Under the pieces are notes generated by a model. That model worked only from the letters and a program-made list of their open reading frames with translations. It was not told where the DNA came from and made no database searches. DNA of 36,520 nt from Clostridiaceae bacterium (lineage in GTDB: Bacteria; Bacillota; Clostridia; Saccharofermentanales; DTU023): assembly GCA_012800435.1 (NCBI GenBank), contig JAAZJH010000050.1, positions 1 through 36,520 of the forward strand, written 5' to 3'. The translations under genes were made by a program, and so were the position numbers. Positions 16,709-28,047 of the stretch are shown piece by piece; positions within the stretch are counted from its first letter, which is position 1, and every line of letters starts with the position of its first letter.

Positions 16709-17011
16709 ATGGAAATGATTCGATTTGAATGGGATGAAGATAAAAACAAACTAAACCAAAGAAAACACGGTTTGTCTTTCGAAGAAGCCTCAACGGTATT
16801 TGCTGATCCGGGAGCCATTCTTTTTGACGATCCAGACCATTCTCTTGAAGAGGAACGTTTTCTCATCATTGGATTATCGGAAAATGAACGTTTCTGCGTT
16901 GTAAGCCACTGTTATAGAGATAAAAATTCCGTCATACGATTGATTTCCGCCAGGAAAGCGACAAAGAATGAACGGACAACCTATTTGAAATGGCAAGAAG
17001 GTAAGTTATGA
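16709..17011 (+). CDS. brnT: BrnT-family toxin (type II toxin-antitoxin, RelE-like ribonuclease)
   Basis: A 100-residue BrnT (COG2929) toxin. BrnT toxins have a RelE-like fold and cut RNA to inhibit translation. Family signatures are clear: FEWDEDKNKLNQRKHGLSFEEA at residues 6-27, VFADPGAILFDDPDHSLEEERFLIIG, and the C-terminal RLISARKATKNERTTY. The stop overlaps the brnA start by four bases (ATGA), so the pair is translationally coupled in the usual toxin-first order. The ATG at 16709 has no Shine-Dalgarno and lies about 4 nt after the expected transcription start; the Met at 16715 is an alternative. The promoter is consensus, so autoregulation by BrnA is probably essential. Confidence 0.93.
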   Translation: MEMIRFEWDEDKNKLNQRKHGLSFEEASTVFADPGAILFDDPDHSLEEERFLIIGLSENERFCVVSHCYRDKNSVIRLISARKATKNERTTYLKWQEGKL

Positions 17012-17223
17012 GAAAAGAATACGATATTAAAAATCTCAATCCGCGGCAGAATCCTTATTCCAACCGCGTGAAGCAGCAAGTTACTATTAATCTTAACAAG
17101 AACACGGTTGAGTATTTTAAGGCAGAATCTAAGCGAACCGGTATGCCATATCAGACGCTGATTAATCTCTACTTGGACGATTGTGTAACCAATAAACGTC
17201 AGATCAACCTTACTTGGAAGTAA
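17008..17223 (+). CDS. brnA: BrnA-family antitoxin (ribbon-helix-helix)
   Basis: A 71-residue antitoxin with the BrnA core NPYSNRVKQQVTINLNKNTVEYFKAESKRTG followed by MPYQTLINLYLDDC, a ribbon-helix-helix DNA-binding domain. It should neutralise BrnT and repress the shared promoter at 16671-16701. The start ATG overlaps the brnT stop, and AGAAGGTAAG just upstream provides a ribosome binding site. BrnTA modules are known in mobile and chromosomal accessory loci; this one stands alone at the edge of the accessory segment. Confidence 0.92.
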   Translation: MRKEYDIKNLNPRQNPYSNRVKQQVTINLNKNTVEYFKAESKRTGMPYQTLINLYLDDCVTNKRQINLTWK

Positions 17224-18056: not shown

Positions 18057-18452
18057 TCACTCCTCGTTTTTCGCGTTCGCTTTTTGTTGGAACGCTTCTG
18101 CATTGACGATGAAGCGCTCATGCAGGCCTTTGCCGATAATACCTTTGTCGTCAAAGAGCTCGACCTTAAAAACAAGTCGCCTGCGGTCAATCTCGATGAG
18201 CTCCGATTTGCACGTAACTGTCATGCCAAGCGGTGTTGGCGACAAATGCTCGATATCGATCTTCGTTCCGACTGTTGTCATCCCTTTCTCAAGATCACCT
18301 TGCACGCTTTCCATGCACGTCGCCTCAGCCAGCGCGATCATGGCCGGCGTCGCCAAGATATCCATCAGTCCGGATCCCCACTTGCTCGCCGTGTAATCCG
18401 AAGTCACCACAAGCTGCTTCTTCCCTCTGCTATGTTCCACTATGCAGCTCAT
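18057..18452 (-). CDS. Hotdog-fold thioesterase, FlK-like
   Basis: A 131-residue single-domain hotdog protein. By eye Thr35, Glu43 and His69 have exactly the spacing (8 and 26 residues) of the Thr42-Glu50-His76 triad of fluoroacetyl-CoA thioesterase FlK, within LATPAMIALAEAT and DIEHLSPTPLG. The family hydrolyses small acyl-CoA esters, and most FlK-like bacterial members have unknown substrates. It is the first gene of a two-gene operon with fabG, which suggests a joint role in acyl-CoA or acyl-ACP handling. The ATG at 18452 has GGAG about 12 nt upstream. The gene ends the core-like GC block; the AT-rich large gene begins 34 bp upstream. Confidence 0.8.
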   Translation of the reverse strand: MSCIVEHSRGKKQLVVTSDYTASKWGSGLMDILATPAMIALAEATCMESVQGDLEKGMTTVGTKIDIEHLSPTPLGMTVTCKSELIEIDRRRLVFKVELFDDKGIIGKGLHERFIVNAEAFQQKANAKNEE

Positions 18453-18485
18453 TTATCTTTATTACTCCATTAATTTCCCTCTGCA

Positions 18486-21400
18486 TTATGGAAGCAAGCC
18501 CGTTTGCTTCATATACAGATGAAGGAGTAAGCCACCCGCAAACTGAGAAAAAACATCTATAATGATCGTGCCTGTTTTGCTTAGTGCTGCTTTAAACTTA
18601 CTCTCGTCTTTATTATTGATAGCTGAAAGTGCTTCTAAAAGTGCTTCTAGGATAGCATTCTTGATTTCTTCATTAGACCGAGATAATATTCTCTCCCACT
18701 CTTTAGTGGACTGAAAAAGTATTTCCTCCAACTCTTCTTTGAAACGTTTGAGGTATGTATCAAATTCGAGCCTAATCCCTTCTACTATATAAATAAAAAC
18801 AGGCGTATCCCCGCCATTTTGTTCGAAGATTTCCGACAGCATACGAACGCGCGAATCGACATTCGAGGATTCGATGGGTTGCAGTAACATGTTGTTACGT
18901 TGAGCAAATTCTCGAAGCTCCTTTGGGCTTATATAAAACATCTCTCCTGCATCCAAATCAAGTTTCTGAAAGTTCTCTGTTACCTGATTAATCTTTGACG
19001 CTAACTCTAACCCTGTGCTTTCTTTTCCAATTTGGAGAGCACCGTAATTTGAATTACTTAAATCAAGAATATAACTTCTCAACGGTGATGAACAGCTAAT
19101 CCCCGCAGTGTATAAAATCTTTGCTAGTTGAATGTTGATATCCTTTTCTTCAGTAAACCCGAAAATCCGTATGCATTCTCTATTTTTAATACCATCTAGT
19201 AGGAGTTCGTTCAATTCAGCTGACGCAATTTCGGGAAATTCCCCTGTTCTTGAATAGAGAATTAAAACTTTTTCAAAAAAAATGTAGTTCGATATTCCTC
19301 TATTGGACAGAATTGCATCACACACATTTAACTGACTTCTTGCTTCTTGTTTTATTTTAGACAACTTATTTTCACACCATGTGATAAAGTCATCTTGTTT
19401 AGCACGCACCCGAACACTTTGTTCAATTTTATGGCGTATTTCTACTATTCTTTTATCTTTGTTATAGTAACTTCCCAAAGTAAAAATCGTTTTGCGTGAC
19501 GAACTTCCATTTAACTTGCTTGATTTATAAATGCCGTCTTTTGTCATTAATTTTGAATGAGCATTCAGAGCGGTCAATACTTCATTAATGAAAAAGGCAC
19601 TCCGATAGAGAAGTTCTCCTGCTTTATCAATTGCCACCTGCCAATTTGAATGTTGGTCGAAAACCGGTTCTTGTTCGAATAGCAACAATGTACCTGCTCG
19701 TTGATCTATTTCGAATATATTATTCGTTGTTTTTTCCAATGCTTCATTTTTATAACACCAATATTTCCAGATACCACTATTAATCCCTGATAATATCCTT
19801 TCAACACTATCTCGATTATCTTCCATAAAAGAGAAAAGGTTGGATGGTAACTGAACAATTTGATCTAGCTCGGCACATAATGATAAAAACTGATTTTTTT
19901 TGTTATTTCCTATAGCACGAAGAGTAAGGTATTGAATATAAGTACGTACAAACATATTCCATTTGGTTTTGCTCTTTTTTTCGGGAACTGCTGTATTATG
20001 CTTGGAAAACACCTTTCGTAAATAAGAATATGTGTAGGCAAACGCAGTTGTGTAGCTCTTATACTTTTGCTCTTGGCCAATAGGATGAATAATATATTTT
20101 CCATGTTTTTGACTTACTAGTATTCTTTTCTTATCATCTATATTGCAAAAGTCCGTTATAAGTGCTGAGTCTGCGCCGACTTTATATGATACATTACTCG
20201 TTGAAACTCTAGGTCCATACAGAGAATAACAGATGCTGTAACAACCGTCTTCAAATGTCTCTTGCTGGGGAAAAATTCCTTTGTTTTGCAACATTCTAAA
20301 AAAAAGAACACAGAGTTTTTCAAACTCCGTTTTATTTAAAACATCTTCGATCATAGTTTGATATTCATACAACATTGCAGCGAAAGCTTCAATCTGACTC
20401 CTAGTAAGCTTAGAATACTCCCCCATCTTATACGCTCGGAGAATCCCATTCTCTGTATGGACAATCGAAGGAACAATCACACCACGATCAATTAATACGT
20501 CAACAACACTTGAAGCTAATTGTAATCTGCTTTTTGTGTCGAGCGAAATACATTCGCAAATCGCACCGTAAGTCACAATTATTTCATCGTCTATTCTTTT
20601 TTTCTGAGAATTTGTATATGATTGTAGCTTGGGATTGATTTGAGATATCATTTGATAGCAATTAGAAAGAATAGAAGGAAACTGATATTTGCTATATTCA
20701 ATGCTTATCGCTGAAATGTGCATCAACACATTATTAAACTCATCATACACATCAGATAAAATATTTGAAAACAAGTTTTCCGTGCTGTTAGAGAACAGGT
20801 ATAAGTCATATTCTGTTTGTTTTCGCGCATACATCTCATTTTTAGAAAAAAATACATCTGCCAATAATTCCGACAAAAAATAACTAACAATCTTCATCAT
20901 GTTTTCACGAGAAATGAATTCATTTTCAACATATGCAAGAGACGCTAACTTATCCGTAGATATATATCGGAACAGTTTTTCAAGCTCTGCATTCGAAATT
21001 TCTGGCAAGAGAACAAACGGGATCACAGTTATGCAATTGTCCTTTGATAAAAACCTGATTTTAAGGACACTATCGTTTAACAAATTAAATGATCTTGTAT
21101 TGATAAGATCATTTTTTTGTAAGCCAAAGTAAACTACATTACTATGAATATCAAACTTTTCTTGGATTCCACTTGTAATATCTACCGAATGATTATGATA
21201 AAGAAACTTATTTAACAGGTCGCTTTCTAATGACATAGTATAGATTGGTTGATCTATGTTGAAGGGACACATAGATGCTTCGATATATTCTGTTATCATT
21301 CCTGCAAATGCATAAATATCTTTTTTAGATAAAGCAACATAGCTTCCCATCAAAGTGAAACCCGAGTCATCTCGAAATGCATTTAAGTAGTCTTTTTCAC

Positions 21401-21743
21401 ACGCGACCACCAGAACATTAGCATGGATTTTGTGTTTCTTAAGTCTTGACACAACGTGTTTTAAGGAATCGCCCTTGACTACAACATCATCAATGACAGC
21501 TAATTCTTTTCCAACACAACCAGACAACACATTATAATCTGTCGTACGACTCGAAATAACTTTGCAATTGGTCGGGGTAATTACTCCATTCAAAACCATG
21601 GCTTCATAAAAGCACACTGCTTTTCTGGCCATGAACATTACTATCTCATATTTGTTTAAAATATCTTGAATCTGCTCACTATATTTCGTGATATAACTAA
21701 AAAATTCACCAGGAAAAATATCAGCAAATGATGGTTTTCTCAT
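18486..21743 (-). CDS. Large uncharacterised protein with N-terminal phosphoribosyltransferase-like domain
   Basis: A 1085-residue protein. The N-terminal 150 residues look like a type I phosphoribosyltransferase fold: EIVMFMARKAVCFYEAM at 33-49, VISSRTTDY at 62-70, then LAVIDDVVVKGDSL at 81-94, which fits the PRPP-binding loop pattern (hydrophobic run, two Asp, Gly-x-Ser/Thr-Leu). The remaining 930 residues match no family I recognise; they appear mostly helical, with a charged amphipathic region near the C-terminus (FKEELEEIL and following) and a final hydrophobic stretch (TIIIDVFSQFAGGLLLHLYM). The start at 21743 follows GGAGG by 9 nt; the open frame goes on to 21806 but lacks a ribosome binding site. 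Codons are clearly more AT-rich than those of fabG or eno, suggesting transfer. It is transcribed alone. A role in defence or stress is speculative. Confidence 0.8.
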   Translation of the reverse strand: MRKPSFADIFPGEFFSYITKYSEQIQDILNKYEIVMFMARKAVCFYEAMVLNGVITPTNCKVISSRTTDYNVLSGCVGKELAVIDDVVVKGDSLKHVVSRLKKHKIHANVLVVACEKDYLNAFRDDSGFTLMGSYVALSKKDIYAFAGMITEYIEASMCPFNIDQPIYTMSLESDLLNKFLYHNHSVDITSGIQEKFDIHSNVVYFGLQKNDLINTRSFNLLNDSVLKIRFLSKDNCITVIPFVLLPEISNAELEKLFRYISTDKLASLAYVENEFISRENMMKIVSYFLSELLADVFFSKNEMYARKQTEYDLYLFSNSTENLFSNILSDVYDEFNNVLMHISAISIEYSKYQFPSILSNCYQMISQINPKLQSYTNSQKKRIDDEIIVTYGAICECISLDTKSRLQLASSVVDVLIDRGVIVPSIVHTENGILRAYKMGEYSKLTRSQIEAFAAMLYEYQTMIEDVLNKTEFEKLCVLFFRMLQNKGIFPQQETFEDGCYSICYSLYGPRVSTSNVSYKVGADSALITDFCNIDDKKRILVSQKHGKYIIHPIGQEQKYKSYTTAFAYTYSYLRKVFSKHNTAVPEKKSKTKWNMFVRTYIQYLTLRAIGNNKKNQFLSLCAELDQIVQLPSNLFSFMEDNRDSVERILSGINSGIWKYWCYKNEALEKTTNNIFEIDQRAGTLLLFEQEPVFDQHSNWQVAIDKAGELLYRSAFFINEVLTALNAHSKLMTKDGIYKSSKLNGSSSRKTIFTLGSYYNKDKRIVEIRHKIEQSVRVRAKQDDFITWCENKLSKIKQEARSQLNVCDAILSNRGISNYIFFEKVLILYSRTGEFPEIASAELNELLLDGIKNRECIRIFGFTEEKDINIQLAKILYTAGISCSSPLRSYILDLSNSNYGALQIGKESTGLELASKINQVTENFQKLDLDAGEMFYISPKELREFAQRNNMLLQPIESSNVDSRVRMLSEIFEQNGGDTPVFIYIVEGIRLEFDTYLKRFKEELEEILFQSTKEWERILSRSNEEIKNAILEALLEALSAINNKDESKFKAALSKTGTIIIDVFSQFAGGLLLHLYMKQTGLLP

Positions 21744-21980
21744 AATAATCAACCTCCAGCAAGTTAACAATTTTTCATAAGAATTGTATATTGTATTATT
21801 ATACACTTCATTATAGAAAATAGGTCACGTGGACTTAAATTCCCAACTTAGAAATGGGATCATGAGAAATCATTTGGACTCCTATAGAATGATAATTAGC
21901 AAAACGACTTCAATGAGGCACACCAATGGCAGAGAAAAAAGATAGCACGGATTTGATAAAATTATTATGTGAATCTTTCT
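21744..21980. other. AT-rich intergenic region at the accessory gene boundary
   Basis: This stretch has no ORF. Next to the large gene it is AT-rich with several TATAAT-like hexamers on the minus strand (for example GTATAATAAT near 21795-21805), a likely promoter zone. TTTGGACTCCTATA at 21873-21886 is the exact reverse complement of 14 bases at 23090-23103 inside the mobile remnant. The two inverted copies bracket the truncated deaminase gene. Confidence 0.4.
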
Positions 21981-22757
21981 TTAATGGCATGTGATTGATT
22001 CTGATACGTAATCGATGTGCAGTGACCCTCCCGTTACCCGAGGCCCCCAACCCTTCTGCAACGCGAGCCAAGCCGTATACTCCAGAGAGCGGTCAAAGGC
22101 ATCTTTTGATTGATCGATGTGCATATCGATCAACGCGTCGTATTGTTCAGCCAAATCGAACACAAAATCTACGTGCTGAAGTTTGTGGTCATCGAGCCAT
22201 TCCGCCGCCGGCATACCGCCCACGACATCACAGCCCATATCCATCGCTTCCTTCATGAGCTCTGCCGTTCCTTCATTGCGATAAATCCCCTCCTGCGGGA
22301 AAGCAATAAGCTGAAGGTCACAGAGATCCTTTGTCTCCTCTTTGGCAGCGATTACTCCTTTCAGCGCAACAAGATCAGGATCAAGATTGCTGATATCAAT
22401 ATTCGTGCGAAGCTTCGTTGTGCCAAAAGCGACACATTCGCGGATAGCACGCACAGCGCGCGCTTTAACGTCTTCGACGGTATACGCGCGAATCCGATCA
22501 TGCATAATGCTGATTGAATCTTCTAACGTTTCCGTGCTGTCTTCACGTCCTCCGAGCGACGTATACGATTTGTCAAAGTGCATATGCGTATTGACAAAAG
22601 TAGGCGCCGTCAACATGCCCTTAGCATCAATCACCTCTACTGAAGTATCTGTTACATTGAGGTTAGGTTCGATTTTGGCATATTTCCCCTGATCGTCGAT
22701 GAGAATATCCACAGGAGCAGGCCGATTTACTACATTTGCATTTTTGATGAGTAACAT
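21981..22757 (-). pseudogene. Truncated CodA-like amidohydrolase
   Basis: A 258-residue fragment of a second cytosine-deaminase-family amidohydrolase. It is collinear with the gene at 1327 from the N-terminus through NTHMHFDKSY (metal His58/His60), AFPQEG, DMHIDQ and WGPRVTGGS, then ends in an unrelated tail (LHIDYVSESITCH). About 150 C-terminal residues, with the metal-binding Asp and the barrel end, are missing. The general acid/base Glu of CodA-type DMHxDE is Gln here, so even the intact ancestor may have had altered chemistry. The start has GGAGG at a good distance and the reading frame is otherwise clean, so the truncation is probably recent. It breaks off facing the AT-rich large gene, consistent with an insertion or deletion junction near 22000-22020. 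Confidence 0.8.
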
Positions 22758-22800
22758 GATTTTGACCTCCGATTTGTGTCATCCGGTTGAATAGAAACGA

Positions 22801-22812
22801 TACAGTACTGTA
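22801..22812. promoter_or_regulatory. 12 bp palindrome TACAGTACTGTA upstream of the truncated deaminase
   Basis: A perfect palindrome about 45 bp upstream of the deaminase start, in the position of an operator over its promoter. A TTTCAC-TAT-GTGAAA dyad lies further upstream near 22880-22894. Both belong to the 567 bp gap 22758-23324, which has no coding capacity and also holds the repeat element at 23022-23182. Confidence 0.4.
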
Positions 22813-23021
22813 CACTTTCACGATAACATCTGGCGGTTATTTTATGGCGTCTTTGAGTTTTAGCTCGTGAGAAACTGTTTTCACTATGTGAAAGGAAGAT
22901 TCTATTTTTGTCTATTTTTGCGATTCATGTGTATAAAAGAGCTGAAAATGAATAAAATGCGATAATCATTTTGTCTACTATGGAGAGAATCATCAAAAAT
23001 GACAGTGTTCGTTAGCCTTAT

Positions 23022-23182
23022 TTGTCAACTGAAAATAGTCCGCTCAATTAGTCGATAATAATTGAATAAAACAACAACTACGACTTAAGTATAGGAGTCC
23101 AAAGTTGCGAACTTTAGTTGACAGTACTTCAGTTCATAAGTCCAAAGTTGCGAACATTAGTTGACAGTACTTAAGTTGACAA
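23022..23182. mobile_element. 161 bp inverted-repeat-ended element, probable transposon remnant
   Basis: The segment begins TTGTCAACT (23022-23030) and ends AGTTGACAA (23174-23182), perfect 9 bp inverted ends that include TG...CA termini. The AGTTGACA motif recurs inside at 23116 and 23159, so the right half holds several copies of the end sequence. Multiple end repeats of this kind are seen in some IS families such as IS21, which makes a deleted insertion sequence or a small non-autonomous element the simplest reading. No transposase fragment and no clear target duplication were seen. Confidence 0.5.
23096..23177. repeat. Two tandem 39 bp direct repeats, 43 bp period
   Basis: AGTCCAAAGTTGCGAAC begins a 39 bp unit at 23096-23134 that recurs at 23139-23177 with two mismatches and a 4 bp separator. 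Each unit contains TTAGTTGACAGTACTT. The separator is far too short for a CRISPR spacer. The repeats lie inside the inverted-repeat-ended element and probably are transposase-binding end repeats. Confidence 0.75.
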
Positions 23183-23324
23183 TAGGGGGTGCCGGACAAA
23201 AAGAACAGCTCAATTGGCATTCCGGAATCTAATAATCATTCTAGAAAGACGAACAAACGCCGTACGACGCCGGAATAATCATTACGATTGAATACTTGGT
23301 GGATTCAATAGAAGTCAGATAATT

Positions 23325-24134
23325 CTAATTGACTAGTTCTCTTACTTCTGATGCCGTATAGAATCTTAAATTGTTTTCAGCAGCATATTTTAGAATTGCT
23401 TCAAGAATATTACTGGAAAGAACATACTTTTCATCATGGTATGGTTTCTCTTTGATCGCATGGGAGTAAAGTATGAGAACTTCGCTATTCTTTTTTGCTC
23501 TATCCATACCTTCAATAATTTCATCCAGCGTATTGCCGTAACTGTCGTCTATGCCTACGCCGTTAATAATCTTACTCCTATTCTTTTGAGAAAAGTAGAC
23601 CTTATTAAGATTTTTTATTCTTACGCCCGAAGTCGTCGCAACCGTTGCTCTTAGTATCAAAAAATACTTTAACAGTGCTTTATCCAATTCCTTTGTGCGA
23701 GCACCAAACGGATAGGAGAAACTGGTAGGCGCAAAACCTTTTTCTGTCATGAGTTGAATTGAAGGAGAGACCTCTTCGTTTATATAGTCGTCTAAAGAGT
23801 TTGTTTTTAAAAAGTCGATAGCGTTCTTATGGTCGTAACCATGACTCCCAAACTCGTGTCCATCTTCTTTCAGTTTATTCATCATATCGAGTTCTTCCTC
23901 GGTAAGAAGATATGGTCGAGTAATAAAGAAAGTCACCTTAGCATGATATTTGTTAAACACATCACGAACTGAATACCAGTCCTTAATCTCTTTATCGTCG
24001 AAAGTTAGCATGATTCCAGGTTCAATCTTTCGATAAGAACACGAAGTAATGCTTGTAAAACTACAGAAAGCTGTAAATAGCAGAGCTGATGCCAGAAACA
24101 AAACGCACACTGTCCGGATTAATCTTTTCCACAT
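23325..24134 (-). CDS. Polysaccharide deacetylase (NodB/CE4 family), exported
   Basis: A 269-residue carbohydrate esterase family 4 protein that removes N-acetyl groups from peptidoglycan or another polysaccharide. An N-terminal hydrophobic segment (residues 8-25) acts as signal or anchor; it lacks a good lipobox. Catalytic motifs are visible: TFDD (base and metal Asp), SHGYDH (metal His pair), SYPFG, and LILYSH near the C-terminus. The start at 24134 follows AGAGAGG. The gene is AT-rich relative to the core genes and stands alone between the mobile remnant and the serine hydrolase operon. Its target is unknown. Confidence 0.88.
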   Translation of the reverse strand: MWKRLIRTVCVLFLASALLFTAFCSFTSITSCSYRKIEPGIMLTFDDKEIKDWYSVRDVFNKYHAKVTFFITRPYLLTEEELDMMNKLKEDGHEFGSHGYDHKNAIDFLKTNSLDDYINEEVSPSIQLMTEKGFAPTSFSYPFGARTKELDKALLKYFLILRATVATTSGVRIKNLNKVYFSQKNRSKIINGVGIDDSYGNTLDEIIEGMDRAKKNSEVLILYSHAIKEKPYHDEKYVLSSNILEAILKYAAENNLRFYTASEVRELVN

Positions 24135-24554
24135 ATAGAACCTCTCTTGAAAACAAGACAGTTTTAGACTCTGCTTAGTCTCTTTTAGGCTTATTAATCT
24201 TTTATAAAAATCAGACAGTTCTCTATTAAATAACGTATTACTTTTTTATTCAAAAATCAACAAGCATATTCCCCCTATTTGCCAACAATCTGAGATAACA
24301 AAGAGAACTGCTACAACCGAACCGTTTTTTATCAGTTACAAGGTGTCAAAAGACACTTCCCAAAAACTGTTAATCCTCGCTTGTTGGAACGGGGATGACT
24401 TGACCCTGACAGTAATCATAACGATATTGTTATATAGTTATGATTCAATATTAATTTGAAATTATGTTTTGTTTGATGTTTAATAAATCTACTTATCGAT
24501 TCTTTTACTTCTGCTTCGAGAAAATATCCGAAGACATCTAAGAAGGAGGTTCAC
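24135..24554 (+). promoter_or_regulatory. Promoter region with dyad upstream of the serine hydrolase operon
   Basis: This 420 bp gap separates divergent genes. TTGACC at 24400-24405 and GATATT at 24423-24428, with 17 bp spacing, form a plausible promoter. AATCATAAC at 24414-24422 and GTTATGATT at 24437-24445 form a perfect 9 bp inverted repeat flanking the -10, well placed for a repressor. A small GTGTC-AAAA-GACAC hairpin lies near 24346-24359. The ribosome binding site AAGGAGG is at 24543-24549. No ORF was seen in the gap. Confidence 0.5.
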
Positions 24555-26012
24555 ATGTATTCGCAAAAACCAAGTACACCACTAAAGAAAAGCACACCCG
24601 AACAACAGGGAGTATCATCTCGAGGCCTGCTGGAATTCTATAAAAGTTGCGTTGCTTCCGGATATGAGTTCCACCATCTGAGCATCGCGATCCACGGGTA
24701 TAAGATCGCACAGGGTTCATGGGTGCCATACCGCGCAGAATTCCCGCATATGTCGCATTCTCTGACAAAAATGTTCACCAATACTGCCGTAGCAATGGCT
24801 TGTGACGAGGGGCTTATTTCGTTGGATGACAAAGTGATATCTTTTTTCCCGGACGAGCTCCCGGAAGTAGTCAGTGATAAACTGGCTGCTATGACGCTTA
24901 GGGATGTTATTCAAATGCGAAGCGGCCACGCTCACATGATCAGCGGCAGCAAGTGGCGTCAAATAAAGACGAGCTGGGTCGTGGAATATTTTAAGGAGCC
25001 GGTCGAGTACTGGCCGGGAGAGTACTATAACTACACCAGCGCAGGAAGTTACATGCTTAGCGCGATAGTACAAAAGGTCACCGGCAAGTCAATCGATGAG
25101 TACCTAAAGGAGAAGCTTTTTGTGCATCTCGGTATAGAGGGGCTGACATGGGACAAGTGCCCTAACGGCATTTGCTCGGGCGGCAACGGCATTACCGTTC
25201 GCAACGAGGATGTCCTCAAGATGGGAGTCCTGTATATTAACAACGGTGTATATGAAGGGAAAAGATATATCTCGCCCGAATGGTGTCATGATGCCATGTA
25301 TGAGTCATGCAAACTGAACGAATCCGGATATGGCTATCATTTCACTAATTATGACGGCGCGATCTCCGCCGGAGGACTGTTTGGACAAACTCTGGTGATG
25401 ATACCGGAGTACGATGTCGTTATCGCTCTTAATGCTGCGTATCAGGAGAACAATCAGGATGCTCTGGATCATCGCGTTCTTGATTTACTCAAGGAGCATC
25501 TATATCCGGCGATCAGTGATTCGCCACTGCCTGAAGATCCCGAGGGATATAAAGCTCTCGAAGACTACACTGCGGGACTCAAAATATCCGTTCCCGTTGG
25601 GAGCGTGCATTCACCCAAAGAGGATGCGTTCTCCGGTACATACGTATTCGAGGACCCCACCGACAATATCAGCTCCATGACCTTTGAGTTTCACGCTGAA
25701 GGCTGTTCCGTCGCAATAACGGATCATCGAGGAACGCATCAGATTGAATGCGGAGCCGGTAAATGGGTATATGAATACAGCTCTATGACCGGCAACTACC
25801 TGCACCACCAGTATCAGCCCGACAGCACTCTTTGCGGCGGATACGGTTATTGGGAGGATCCGGAAACGTATGTCATGAAGTGGGCATGGGTTTATATGAC
25901 TTTCATCGACACGTGCGTCTGCAAATTTGCGGACGGCAGTATGTCATTCAAGAGGAGCGTCAACGTCAACACCCAAGACAAAGAAAGACCCCTGATTTAC
26001 GGCAAAAAATAG
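24555..26012 (+). CDS. Serine hydrolase of the class C beta-lactamase fold
   Basis: A 485-residue serine hydrolase. The nucleophile motif SxxK is SLTK at residues 69-72, and the second motif is YTS in WPGEYYNYTSAGSY. The C-terminal part from about residue 330 is an extra beta-rich domain. There is no signal peptide, so the enzyme is cytosolic and unlikely to act on cell wall or give antibiotic resistance; relatives of this kind hydrolyse esters or small amides. The start follows AAGGAGG with ideal spacing. It is the first gene of an apparent operon with the AtuA-like and DUF4387 genes (62 bp to the next start), suggesting it releases an acid or acyl substrate that they process; this is inference. 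Confidence 0.85.
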   Translation: MYSQKPSTPLKKSTPEQQGVSSRGLLEFYKSCVASGYEFHHLSIAIHGYKIAQGSWVPYRAEFPHMSHSLTKMFTNTAVAMACDEGLISLDDKVISFFPDELPEVVSDKLAAMTLRDVIQMRSGHAHMISGSKWRQIKTSWVVEYFKEPVEYWPGEYYNYTSAGSYMLSAIVQKVTGKSIDEYLKEKLFVHLGIEGLTWDKCPNGICSGGNGITVRNEDVLKMGVLYINNGVYEGKRYISPEWCHDAMYESCKLNESGYGYHFTNYDGAISAGGLFGQTLVMIPEYDVVIALNAAYQENNQDALDHRVLDLLKEHLYPAISDSPLPEDPEGYKALEDYTAGLKISVPVGSVHSPKEDAFSGTYVFEDPTDNISSMTFEFHAEGCSVAITDHRGTHQIECGAGKWVYEYSSMTGNYLHHQYQPDSTLCGGYGYWEDPETYVMKWAWVYMTFIDTCVCKFADGSMSFKRSVNVNTQDKERPLIYGKK

Positions 26013-26074
26013 AACCCGAATAGGCCGGCTGCGGAACTCCAAGAATAACCTCGTTAGCGATCAGGAGATAGCTT

Positions 26075-27424
26075 ATGAAAAGAGAGCTGCGGATACTTAC
26101 TCCACTGGGTATGCTCGGGTATGGATTCCCCATTCAGTGGTTCGAAAAAGGACTGGAAATGGAGCCTCATGCGATAACCGTTGACGCGGGCTCCACTGAC
26201 AGCGGTCCTCAGAAACTTGCGCTTGGCTTGATGACCTGCTCCTATGAAGCGTACTACGAGGAAATCGAGATTTTGCTTCTTGCGGGTCAACGCAAGCATA
26301 TCCCGGTATTTATCAGTTCGGCAGGCGGCGACGGGTCAAATATCCATGTCGACTTGTTTGTGCAAATTGTTGAGGATATATGCGCCAAGCATGATCTTCA
26401 CTTAAAGTTGGGAGTGATCTACTCCGAGCCCGGCAAAGATCTCATCCGAGAACGCCTTAAAGAGGGTAGAATTTCTCCTTGCGGTCCTGTTCCCCAGCTT
26501 ACAGAAGAGGATATCAACGACGCGACTGTCATCGTCGCACAGATGGGCGTAGAACCGTATCTGAAAATGCTGGACGAACACCCGGACATCGATGTGATTA
26601 TTTCCGGGCGCACATACGATCCCGTGCCGATAGCGGCATTCGGCATCAAAAACGGCTATGACCCGGCACTCTGCTGGCACATGGGTAAGATCATGGAGTG
26701 TGGTGCCCTGTGCGCCACACCCGCCGGGAAGAGCATACTTGGCACGCTAACGGAGGACTCCTTTACCCTCGAACCGCTTAACCCAAAAGAAAGATGTACT
26801 CCCTATTCCGTCGCAGCTCATACGATGTACGAGAAATCTCACCCGTATTATCTGCCCGGACCGGGAGGAAGGCTGGATTTATCCGGTTGTTCCTTTGAAC
26901 AGGTCAACGATCGTGTTGTAAGAGTGAGCGGGAGCAGGTTTGAGCCGACAACTTACACCGTCAAATTGGAGGGCAGCAAAGTTGCAGGCGAGCGCGCAAT
27001 ATGCGTGGGCGGCATACGCGACCCCATATTAATATCCCAAATCGATCCGTTTCTGGATAAAGTGAAGAAGGATGTCCTTGAAGAGTACGCTGAGATGGGC
27101 GGAGTACTCCTATTCCACATATATGGTAAGAACGGCGTTATGGGCGTGTTGGAGCCTAACAAGGATCATGTTCCTCTTGAACTGTGCGTCATCATTGAAA
27201 CCGTGGCTCCAACGGAGAAAATCGCAATCAATATGTGCAACCGAGCTCGAGTGAATATGCTGCATTACGATTATGAGGGGCGCATCGCCACAGCAGGTAA
27301 TATTGCGCTTCCCTTTACTCCGCTTGAGATCCCGTTGGGCAAGGTCTGTGAGTTCAACGTATACCACACGATGGAATTGAATGATTCATGTGAAGTCTTT
27401 CCAATGAAAGTGCTAGAAATATAA
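26075..27424 (+). CDS. AtuA-like (DUF1446) protein
   Basis: A 449-residue member of the DUF1446 / acyclic terpene utilisation AtuA family. Visible family features are an N-terminal ITVDAGSTDSGP, SSAGGDGSN, VIISGRTYDPVPIAAFGI near the middle, HMGKIMECGALCATPAGK, and TTYTVKLEGSKVAGERAICVGGIRDP in the C-terminal half. The biochemical activity of this family is not established; members occur in operons for terpenoid and organic acid breakdown. The start at 26075 has AGGAG upstream. A DUF4387 gene follows 45 bp downstream; in many proteins that domain is fused to or paired with AtuA, so the two probably form a functional unit. Confidence 0.87.
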   Translation: MKRELRILTPLGMLGYGFPIQWFEKGLEMEPHAITVDAGSTDSGPQKLALGLMTCSYEAYYEEIEILLLAGQRKHIPVFISSAGGDGSNIHVDLFVQIVEDICAKHDLHLKLGVIYSEPGKDLIRERLKEGRISPCGPVPQLTEEDINDATVIVAQMGVEPYLKMLDEHPDIDVIISGRTYDPVPIAAFGIKNGYDPALCWHMGKIMECGALCATPAGKSILGTLTEDSFTLEPLNPKERCTPYSVAAHTMYEKSHPYYLPGPGGRLDLSGCSFEQVNDRVVRVSGSRFEPTTYTVKLEGSKVAGERAICVGGIRDPILISQIDPFLDKVKKDVLEEYAEMGGVLLFHIYGKNGVMGVLEPNKDHVPLELCVIIETVAPTEKIAINMCNRARVNMLHYDYEGRIATAGNIALPFTPLEIPLGKVCEFNVYHTMELNDSCEVFPMKVLEI

Positions 27425-27450
27425 CAAATGAAAGTAATGGAAATATAACA
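27403..27450 (+). repeat. 24 bp tandem duplication at the 3' end of the AtuA-like gene
   Basis: The 24 bases at 27403-27426, which contain the final codons and stop (AATGAAAGT...GAAATATAAC), recur at 27427-27450 with three mismatches. The second copy is non-coding and lengthens the gap to the DUF4387 gene. Replication slippage is the likely origin. Confidence 0.8.
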
Positions 27451-27469
27451 GCGGAGATAATCGACTGCC

Positions 27470-27784
27470 ATGAAGAATATTTTTCTAAAAGATTTTGCCA
27501 AAGTCATCCGGAGTAAAAATGCCGGACCTTTTGAGATGACAATGGATATCGTTCTTAAGAACCAAGAGGATTACCTGTACATCAAAGAGAACAATATCAT
27601 TAATAGAGAGCTGATCTCTGAGCTGTACCGGATACCTCAGGAAGAAATAATCACACTATGCTACTTCGATAACGCACATGGCATCAAGATAACTATTCCT
27701 CGACCGCGCCCTCAGGGTGCCGCCGGAGAGACTGATATGCACGCTGCTCAGCAGCACGTTCCGCTCATGTATATTATGATTTAA
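27470..27784 (+). CDS. DUF4387 protein, AtuA partner
   Basis: A 104-residue DUF4387 protein. The N-terminal LKDFAKVIRSKNAGPFEMTMDIVL and the C-terminal HGIKITIPRPRPQGAAGETDMHAAQQHVP are near-diagnostic. The family has no proven function but is found next to or fused with DUF1446/AtuA, as here. The start has GGAG about 13 nt upstream. It is the last gene of the serine hydrolase operon; a strong terminator lies 66 bp after its stop. Confidence 0.88.
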   Translation: MKNIFLKDFAKVIRSKNAGPFEMTMDIVLKNQEDYLYIKENNIINRELISELYRIPQEEIITLCYFDNAHGIKITIPRPRPQGAAGETDMHAAQQHVPLMYIMI

Positions 27785-27850
27785 AGTGCGCTAAGCGTTA
27801 ATATAAACAAAGAGCAATCAAGAAAGAGATTTACATATCAAGACAGCAAA

Positions 27851-27895
27851 AAAGGATACCCCTTGTGACCCAGTGTCACGAGGGGTATTCCTTTC
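27851..27895. terminator. Strong bidirectional terminator
   Basis: GGATACCCCT plus GTGAC (27854-27869) pair with GTCAC plus AGGGGTATTCC (27875-27891) around a CCAGT loop. The minus-strand copy ends in six T, the plus-strand one in CTTTCT. It can stop both the DUF4387 transcript and the convergent glp-type operon. Confidence 0.88.
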
Positions 27896-27930
27896 TAGCC
27901 GGCAATTCAAAGCCCGAACGCCTAGGATGC

Positions 27931-28006
27931 GACTTCGTCAGAAGTGTCTCCTGCTCGTTGCTACATGAATTCGGTAGCAATGTCTTTCGCAAGTTGCCTA
28001 TGCGAA
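27931..28006. other. Run of three short hairpins in the convergent gap
   Basis: Within the 263 bp gap between DUF4387 and DUF1667, three small dyads follow each other: ACTTC-GTCA-GAAGT (27932-27945), TTGCTAC/GTAGCAA (27958-27964 and 27974-27980), and TTCGCA/TGCGAA (27986-27991 and 28001-28006). They could be part of the 3' untranslated region of the minus-strand operon. Confidence 0.3.
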
Positions 28007-28047
28007 CCTATTAGCAATGTATTGAGTCAGCTTCCGACAGAAATCCG

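Follow-up and report, generated by a model that had tools for sequence, protein, structure and literature searches.

The minus-strand gene at positions 18,486 to 21,743 of the window, i.e., of the whole analyzed stretch of 36,520 nucleotides, was apparently acquired horizontally and may well encode a probably self-sufficient defense protein of the abortive-infection type, in which a phosphoribosyltransferase (PRTase) head is placed under a sensor body. A role in defense is suggested by a gene that is conserved over its full length across phyla, patchily distributed and of foreign composition, and by defense genes beside both other intact copies. It is proposed more tentatively that the protein represents an undescribed single-gene immune family, spread between phyla and combining a PRTase effector, whose basic PRPP loop is PurF-like, with a sensing body of about 900 residues. 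The features of the gene are as follows:

18486..21743, minus strand: coding sequence of 1085 residues plus stop codon, here the founding member of a family of PRTase-headed giant proteins (open reading frame, ribosome site, full-length homologues L050 and L051)
21267..21743, minus strand: type I PRTase-like head, residues 1–159 (NCBIfam PRTase models, AF2 model of residues 1–198, PDB fold matches)
21606..21635, minus strand: FMARKAVCFY, residues 37–46, candidate pyrophosphate loop (alignment, model secondary structure)
21462..21503, minus strand: PRPP-loop motif LAVIDDVVVKGDSL, residues 81–94, at the position of the PurF loop (three-way alignment)
21243..21287, minus strand: nearly invariant signature YIEASMCPxNIDQP at the head–body junction, residues 153–167 (alignment)
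20406..20489, minus strand: DRGVIVPSIVHxxNxIxxAYKMGExSKL, residues 419–446 (three-way alignment)
19728..20333, minus strand: conserved body core, residues 471–672, KTEFEKLCVL ... YSLxGPRVS ... QYLTLxAIGxxxKNQxLSLCAE ... GIxSGxWKYxCYxxxxLEKT (alignment)

Coding Sequence and PRTase-Like Head

The 1085-residue reading frame is real. It starts with ATG preceded by a GGAGG ribosome-binding site (start region ...CTGGAGGTTGATTATTATG), and its full-length relatives, at 35–38% identity, make it more than a chance frame. As stated in the first-pass annotation, the gene is AT-rich: its GC content is 34.7% and its GC3 0.316, compared to 48–53% and about 0.48–0.64 for most neighboring genes, and its composition is foreign relative to the surroundings. 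Further AT-rich neighbors are the polysaccharide deacetylase (GC3 0.36) and BrnT (GC3 0.35) genes.

The head had been recognized previously from a PRPP-loop sequence at residues 81–94 and an upstream VISSR, located at residues 62–66, and its PRTase-like character was corroborated by three lines of evidence, namely weak NCBIfam matches, retention of the loop in relatives and a fold search. Over the loop, the PRTase models NF002620 (E 5.7e-4) and NF004689 (E 3.5e-3) matched below curated cut-offs; NF004689 and NF005592 each matched two of the three family members, likewise below these cut-offs. An AF2 model of residues 1–198, built from five alignment rows, reached a pLDDT of 70.6 and a pTM of 0.68. 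In the Foldseek search of this model against the PDB, HGPRTases ranked first (E 7.4e-5, probability 1.00), and SIS-type sugar-phosphate domains and other alpha/beta folds appeared lower in the list. The modest TM-scores of about 0.4–0.55 support a PRTase-like fold of the modeled head and do not prove activity.

Within the three-way alignment of intact copies, VIDDVVVKG is identical in all three (VIDDVIVKG in a fourth, decayed copy), and D85, D86, K90, G91 and S93 are invariant. This invariance is partly built in, as the scan pattern used to find the relatives itself required the VIDDVVVKG core and KG; the other ~1,070 residues were unconstrained. R40 and K41 are also invariant and follow strand 1 of the head in the model secondary structure, and the surrounding FMARKAVCFY is a candidate pyrophosphate loop. 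Canonical PRTases carry TGxT in the PRPP loop. The head loop reads DDVVVKG[DE]S, with KGDS or KGES in the three-way alignment where the canonical (T/S)Gx(T/S) 5'-phosphate loop would be expected. PurF of host relatives shows [IV]DDS[ILV]VRGTT at the same position and thus also features a basic residue before G, so that the KG of the head appears compatible with PRPP binding.

Conservation of the Body

The body was described in the first-pass annotation as matching no recognized family, which was borne out: sequence searches in Pfam, NCBIfam, PADLOC, PHROGs and the PDB yielded no convincing family match, including none to a housekeeping family. A DapD/DapH match at residues 978–1063 was confined to the window protein, absent in the relatives and therefore set aside. 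The structure check suggested for the remainder was carried out as a full-length AF2 run, and the resulting model was poor (pLDDT 36.6) and used for secondary structure only. A helix at residues 403–419 appears only in this low-confidence model. Residues 419–446, which no profile matched, possibly form a winged-helix wing.

In total, 284 of the 1085 residues are invariant among the intact copies. The most conserved stretches are the head (1–200) and residues 401–520 and 601–680; residues 841–1040 are weakly conserved. Since residues 401–520 and 601–640 are about half invariant in the three copies and KG[DE]S replaces the canonical loop, the head might also represent a catalytically dead PRTase-like sensor of a nucleotide or PRPP, with catalytic or toxic activity located in the body. 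This arrangement is considered unlikely: in its acid pair and in the basic residue preceding G, the loop resembles that of PurF, which is an active PRPP enzyme; conservation at head residues ranks among the highest in the protein, and neither of the known catalytic motifs looked for (Walker A, conserved HEPN RxxxxH) is common to all three bodies. An effector head controlled by the body is preferred.

Relatives and Distribution

To identify relatives, 84,980 species were scanned with the pattern [VI][IV]DD[VI][VI][VI]KG, and matches were confirmed by tblastn with P0001. The pattern originated from alignment A2, in which P0001 is aligned with short invented peptides varying the PRPP loop; A1, A3 and A4 were likewise constructed artificially and do not count as biological evidence. 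As the pattern finds only relatives keeping KG, the family is under-sampled. Two full-length relatives were obtained, one in a Dysgonamonadaceae (Bacteroidota) MAG (L050, 38% identity) and one in a Christensenellaceae MAG (L051, 35% identity); within the set of candidate stretches, their E-values were 0 and 6e-164. A Lachnospiraceae MAG (L052) contains residues 1–164 only, at 54% identity and with a frameshift and a stop; this copy is a decayed remnant of the head.

A family profile run over 188 host-order genomes, including that of the host, detected a full-length member only in the window copy and none in the 187 others. The other matches listed for the host order were short and located in or near the loop region, and the two inspected were PurF. 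Searches with the single protein revealed no relative in 391 genomes of the class, 118 relatives and 398 genomes of the phylum, and back-translated 8-mers of the single protein likewise found none. No record with a relative was present in the plasmid and phage collections, including IMG/VR. Weak matches to AcrB-type efflux pumps (L002, L004), an aldolase-like locus (L003), a histidine kinase (L049) and Bartonella TraA were judged to be due to chance.

The family is thus very rare and patchily spread over at least two phyla, and it is missing from the rest of the searched host order. This agrees with the patchy distribution for which a profile search had been advised; conserved synteny and a normal phylogeny were not observed, the relatives being scattered over at least two phyla.

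Genomic Setting of the Window Copy

Two further features describe the surroundings of the gene:

21981..22757, minus strand: truncated amidohydrolase, homology ending at 22026, last ~170 C-terminal residues missing
18452..28035, no strand assigned: variable segment of 9.6 kb; in G393, the closest congener, 465 bp stand in its place

On the minus strand, the order of genes is amidohydrolase remnant, 1085-residue gene, FlK thioesterase and SDR. The FlK gene starts 33 bp downstream of the stop codon on the same strand, so that cotranscription is possible and the monocistronic organization stated previously is not established. Similarly, the gene does not directly adjoin the toxin–antitoxin locus, as had been stated, since the SDR and FlK thioesterase genes separate them. 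This locus is an AT-rich BrnT/BrnA pair at 16709–17223 (PF04365 E 3e-28, PF14384 E 2.7e-7). The broken gene reported nearby was verified as the amidohydrolase lacking its C-terminus, which likely represents the upstream junction of the acquired DNA. The transposon-like repeats described with it reduce to one 43-bp tandem duplication (23083–23168), whose copies are 86% identical and lie in the AT-rich intergenic region that separates the amidohydrolase remnant from a polysaccharide deacetylase gene, and no transposase was found among the window genes scanned.

The flanks of the 9.6-kb segment share 83–88% DNA identity with G393, and another genome (G401) carries other genes after FlK. Accordingly, the contig is host DNA on either side of the segment, which is itself variable. 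Within the G393 replacement (L037:1640–1780), several copies of a ~36-bp repeat were observed (gctgacaggatcgcgtcggcaactagcgaagtacaa). The mobile setting assumed in the first-pass annotation is supported by the foreign composition of the gene and by the absence of the segment from G393.

Neighbors of the Related Copies

Inspection of the homologues' neighborhoods, also advised earlier, revealed a bSEFIR/TIR gene at one locus and a weak PDC-S31 match at the other (n = 2). The Christensenellaceae copy is located head to head with a gene for a 940-residue protein, whose C-terminal part matches TIR_2 (E 9.5e-8) and PADLOC bSEFIR (E 7.1e-22). This divergent gene (L051:2061–4880), whose predicted start overlaps that of the PRTase giant, also encodes a GKT-like P-loop, SCSGKT, recognized by eye. 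Upstream of the Dysgonamonadaceae copy is a group of three genes, the last of which encodes a DUF2971 protein about 1 kb away that matches PDC-S31 weakly (E 1.1e-4); a gene for a transposase-like ISL3 zinc ribbon follows downstream of the copy. Hence, known or candidate defense genes adjoin both other intact copies, and near the window copy only BrnTA occurs; three copies are too few for statistics. The three intact loci have no partner gene in common, a point in favor of an autonomous, self-sufficient gene.

Beside the decayed Lachnospiraceae head, a cluster (L052:7723–14533) encodes proteins of 508, 328, 609 (HEFYH motif) and 641 residues with few or no family matches; the last contains DUF2325 and weakly matches LmuB. 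Possibly, this cluster is a conflict locus in its own right that has not been described before.

The mobile and patchy occurrence, the foreign composition and the ISL3 zinc ribbon would also suit a conflict protein that is toxin-like or selfish, uses the same PRTase head as effector and serves element maintenance or inter-bacterial competition instead of acting against phages. PRTases also occur in toxin–antitoxin pairs (PMC9122126). Nevertheless, such a function is rather improbable: no secretion or delivery domain was found, no dedicated antitoxin or immunity gene recurs at all three loci, and neighbors at the two other loci match PADLOC defense profiles.

Proposed Function

Defense against phage and the making or sensing of a nucleotide, both considered possible in the first-pass annotation, are inferences. 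For the favored anti-phage function, the following course is conceivable. The type I PRTase-like domain (residues 1 to about 160) would bind PRPP via the D85-D86 ... K90-G91 loop, and the conserved body would act as sensor and regulator keeping the head off until phage infection. Once activated, the head may use up PRPP or transfer phosphoribosyl groups to a cell component, so that growth stops. Several points count against this interpretation, namely the small sample of three intact copies underlying defense adjacency at two loci, the weakness and distance of the DUF2971 match, BrnTA, two genes away, as the sole conflict-type neighbor in the window, the absence of the gene from phage and plasmid records in the collections searched, a body without an identified mechanism domain and the low quality of the full-length model.

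A cellular regulator or nucleotide-metabolism enzyme exchanged horizontally by chance, as might be suggested by the PRTase head and the putative winged helix at residues 419–446, is very improbable given its absence from congeners, extreme rarity, variable genomic position and lack of any link to nucleotide genes at the loci seen.

PRTase effectors recur in bacterial defense, i.e., in type III retrons, DprA-PRTase and ShosTA-like systems. If the anti-phage interpretation is true, a PRTase effector encoded by a single gene would offer a simple setting for asking how PRTases act on infection, and the conserved body may contain a new phage-sensing fold. As the protein falls outside the families of Pfam, NCBIfam, PHROGs and PADLOC, pipelines relying on these libraries would miss it.

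Comparison with Known PRTase Systems

The head shares with type I PRTases an HGPRTase-like fold and a DD....G loop, whose basic residue before G corresponds to that in PurF ([IV]DDSxVRGTT). It differs from them by KG[DE]S instead of TGxT, by the ~900 further fused residues and by the lack of full-length similarity. PRTase-CE (PF24390) and wHTH-PRTase_assc (PF24409) were considered as candidates and tested by profile. The PRTase-like loop IDDV..SGE of PRTase-CE can be likened to the head loop; however, PRTase-CE proteins comprise about 330 residues, PF24390 had no match above its curated cut-off in the window genome, and profile comparison covered 26 columns at a probability of 8%, so that identity with this family was rejected. 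One PRTase-CE example (L011) follows a DNA-methyltransferase-like gene, as recognized by eye. PF24409 was likewise rejected, since it did not match the 1085-residue gene even at E 10; it also had no match in 348 phylum genomes.

Typical type III retron effectors are PRTase and winged-helix proteins (PMC12548924), a combination possibly shared by the protein described here. Assignment to a type III retron was rejected: no reverse transcriptase was found among the Pfam-scanned neighbors, which gave one sub-cut-off PF14529 match (E 0.027). According to PMC9122126, it is unknown how retron PRTases act. ShosT of ShosTA is a PRTase in a defense/toxin system (PMC9122126) and was the only PADLOC profile touched (residues 76–117, E 0.14, not significant); the 1085-residue protein is much longer, and no DprA-like gene was present among the neighbors scanned in the window, L050 and L051, so that this identity was discarded. 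PRTase proteins are also part of the DprA-PRTase phage defense system, and DprA-like antitoxins occur in shosTA, syrTA and rqlHI (PMC9122126), which supports the idea of a PRTase effector.
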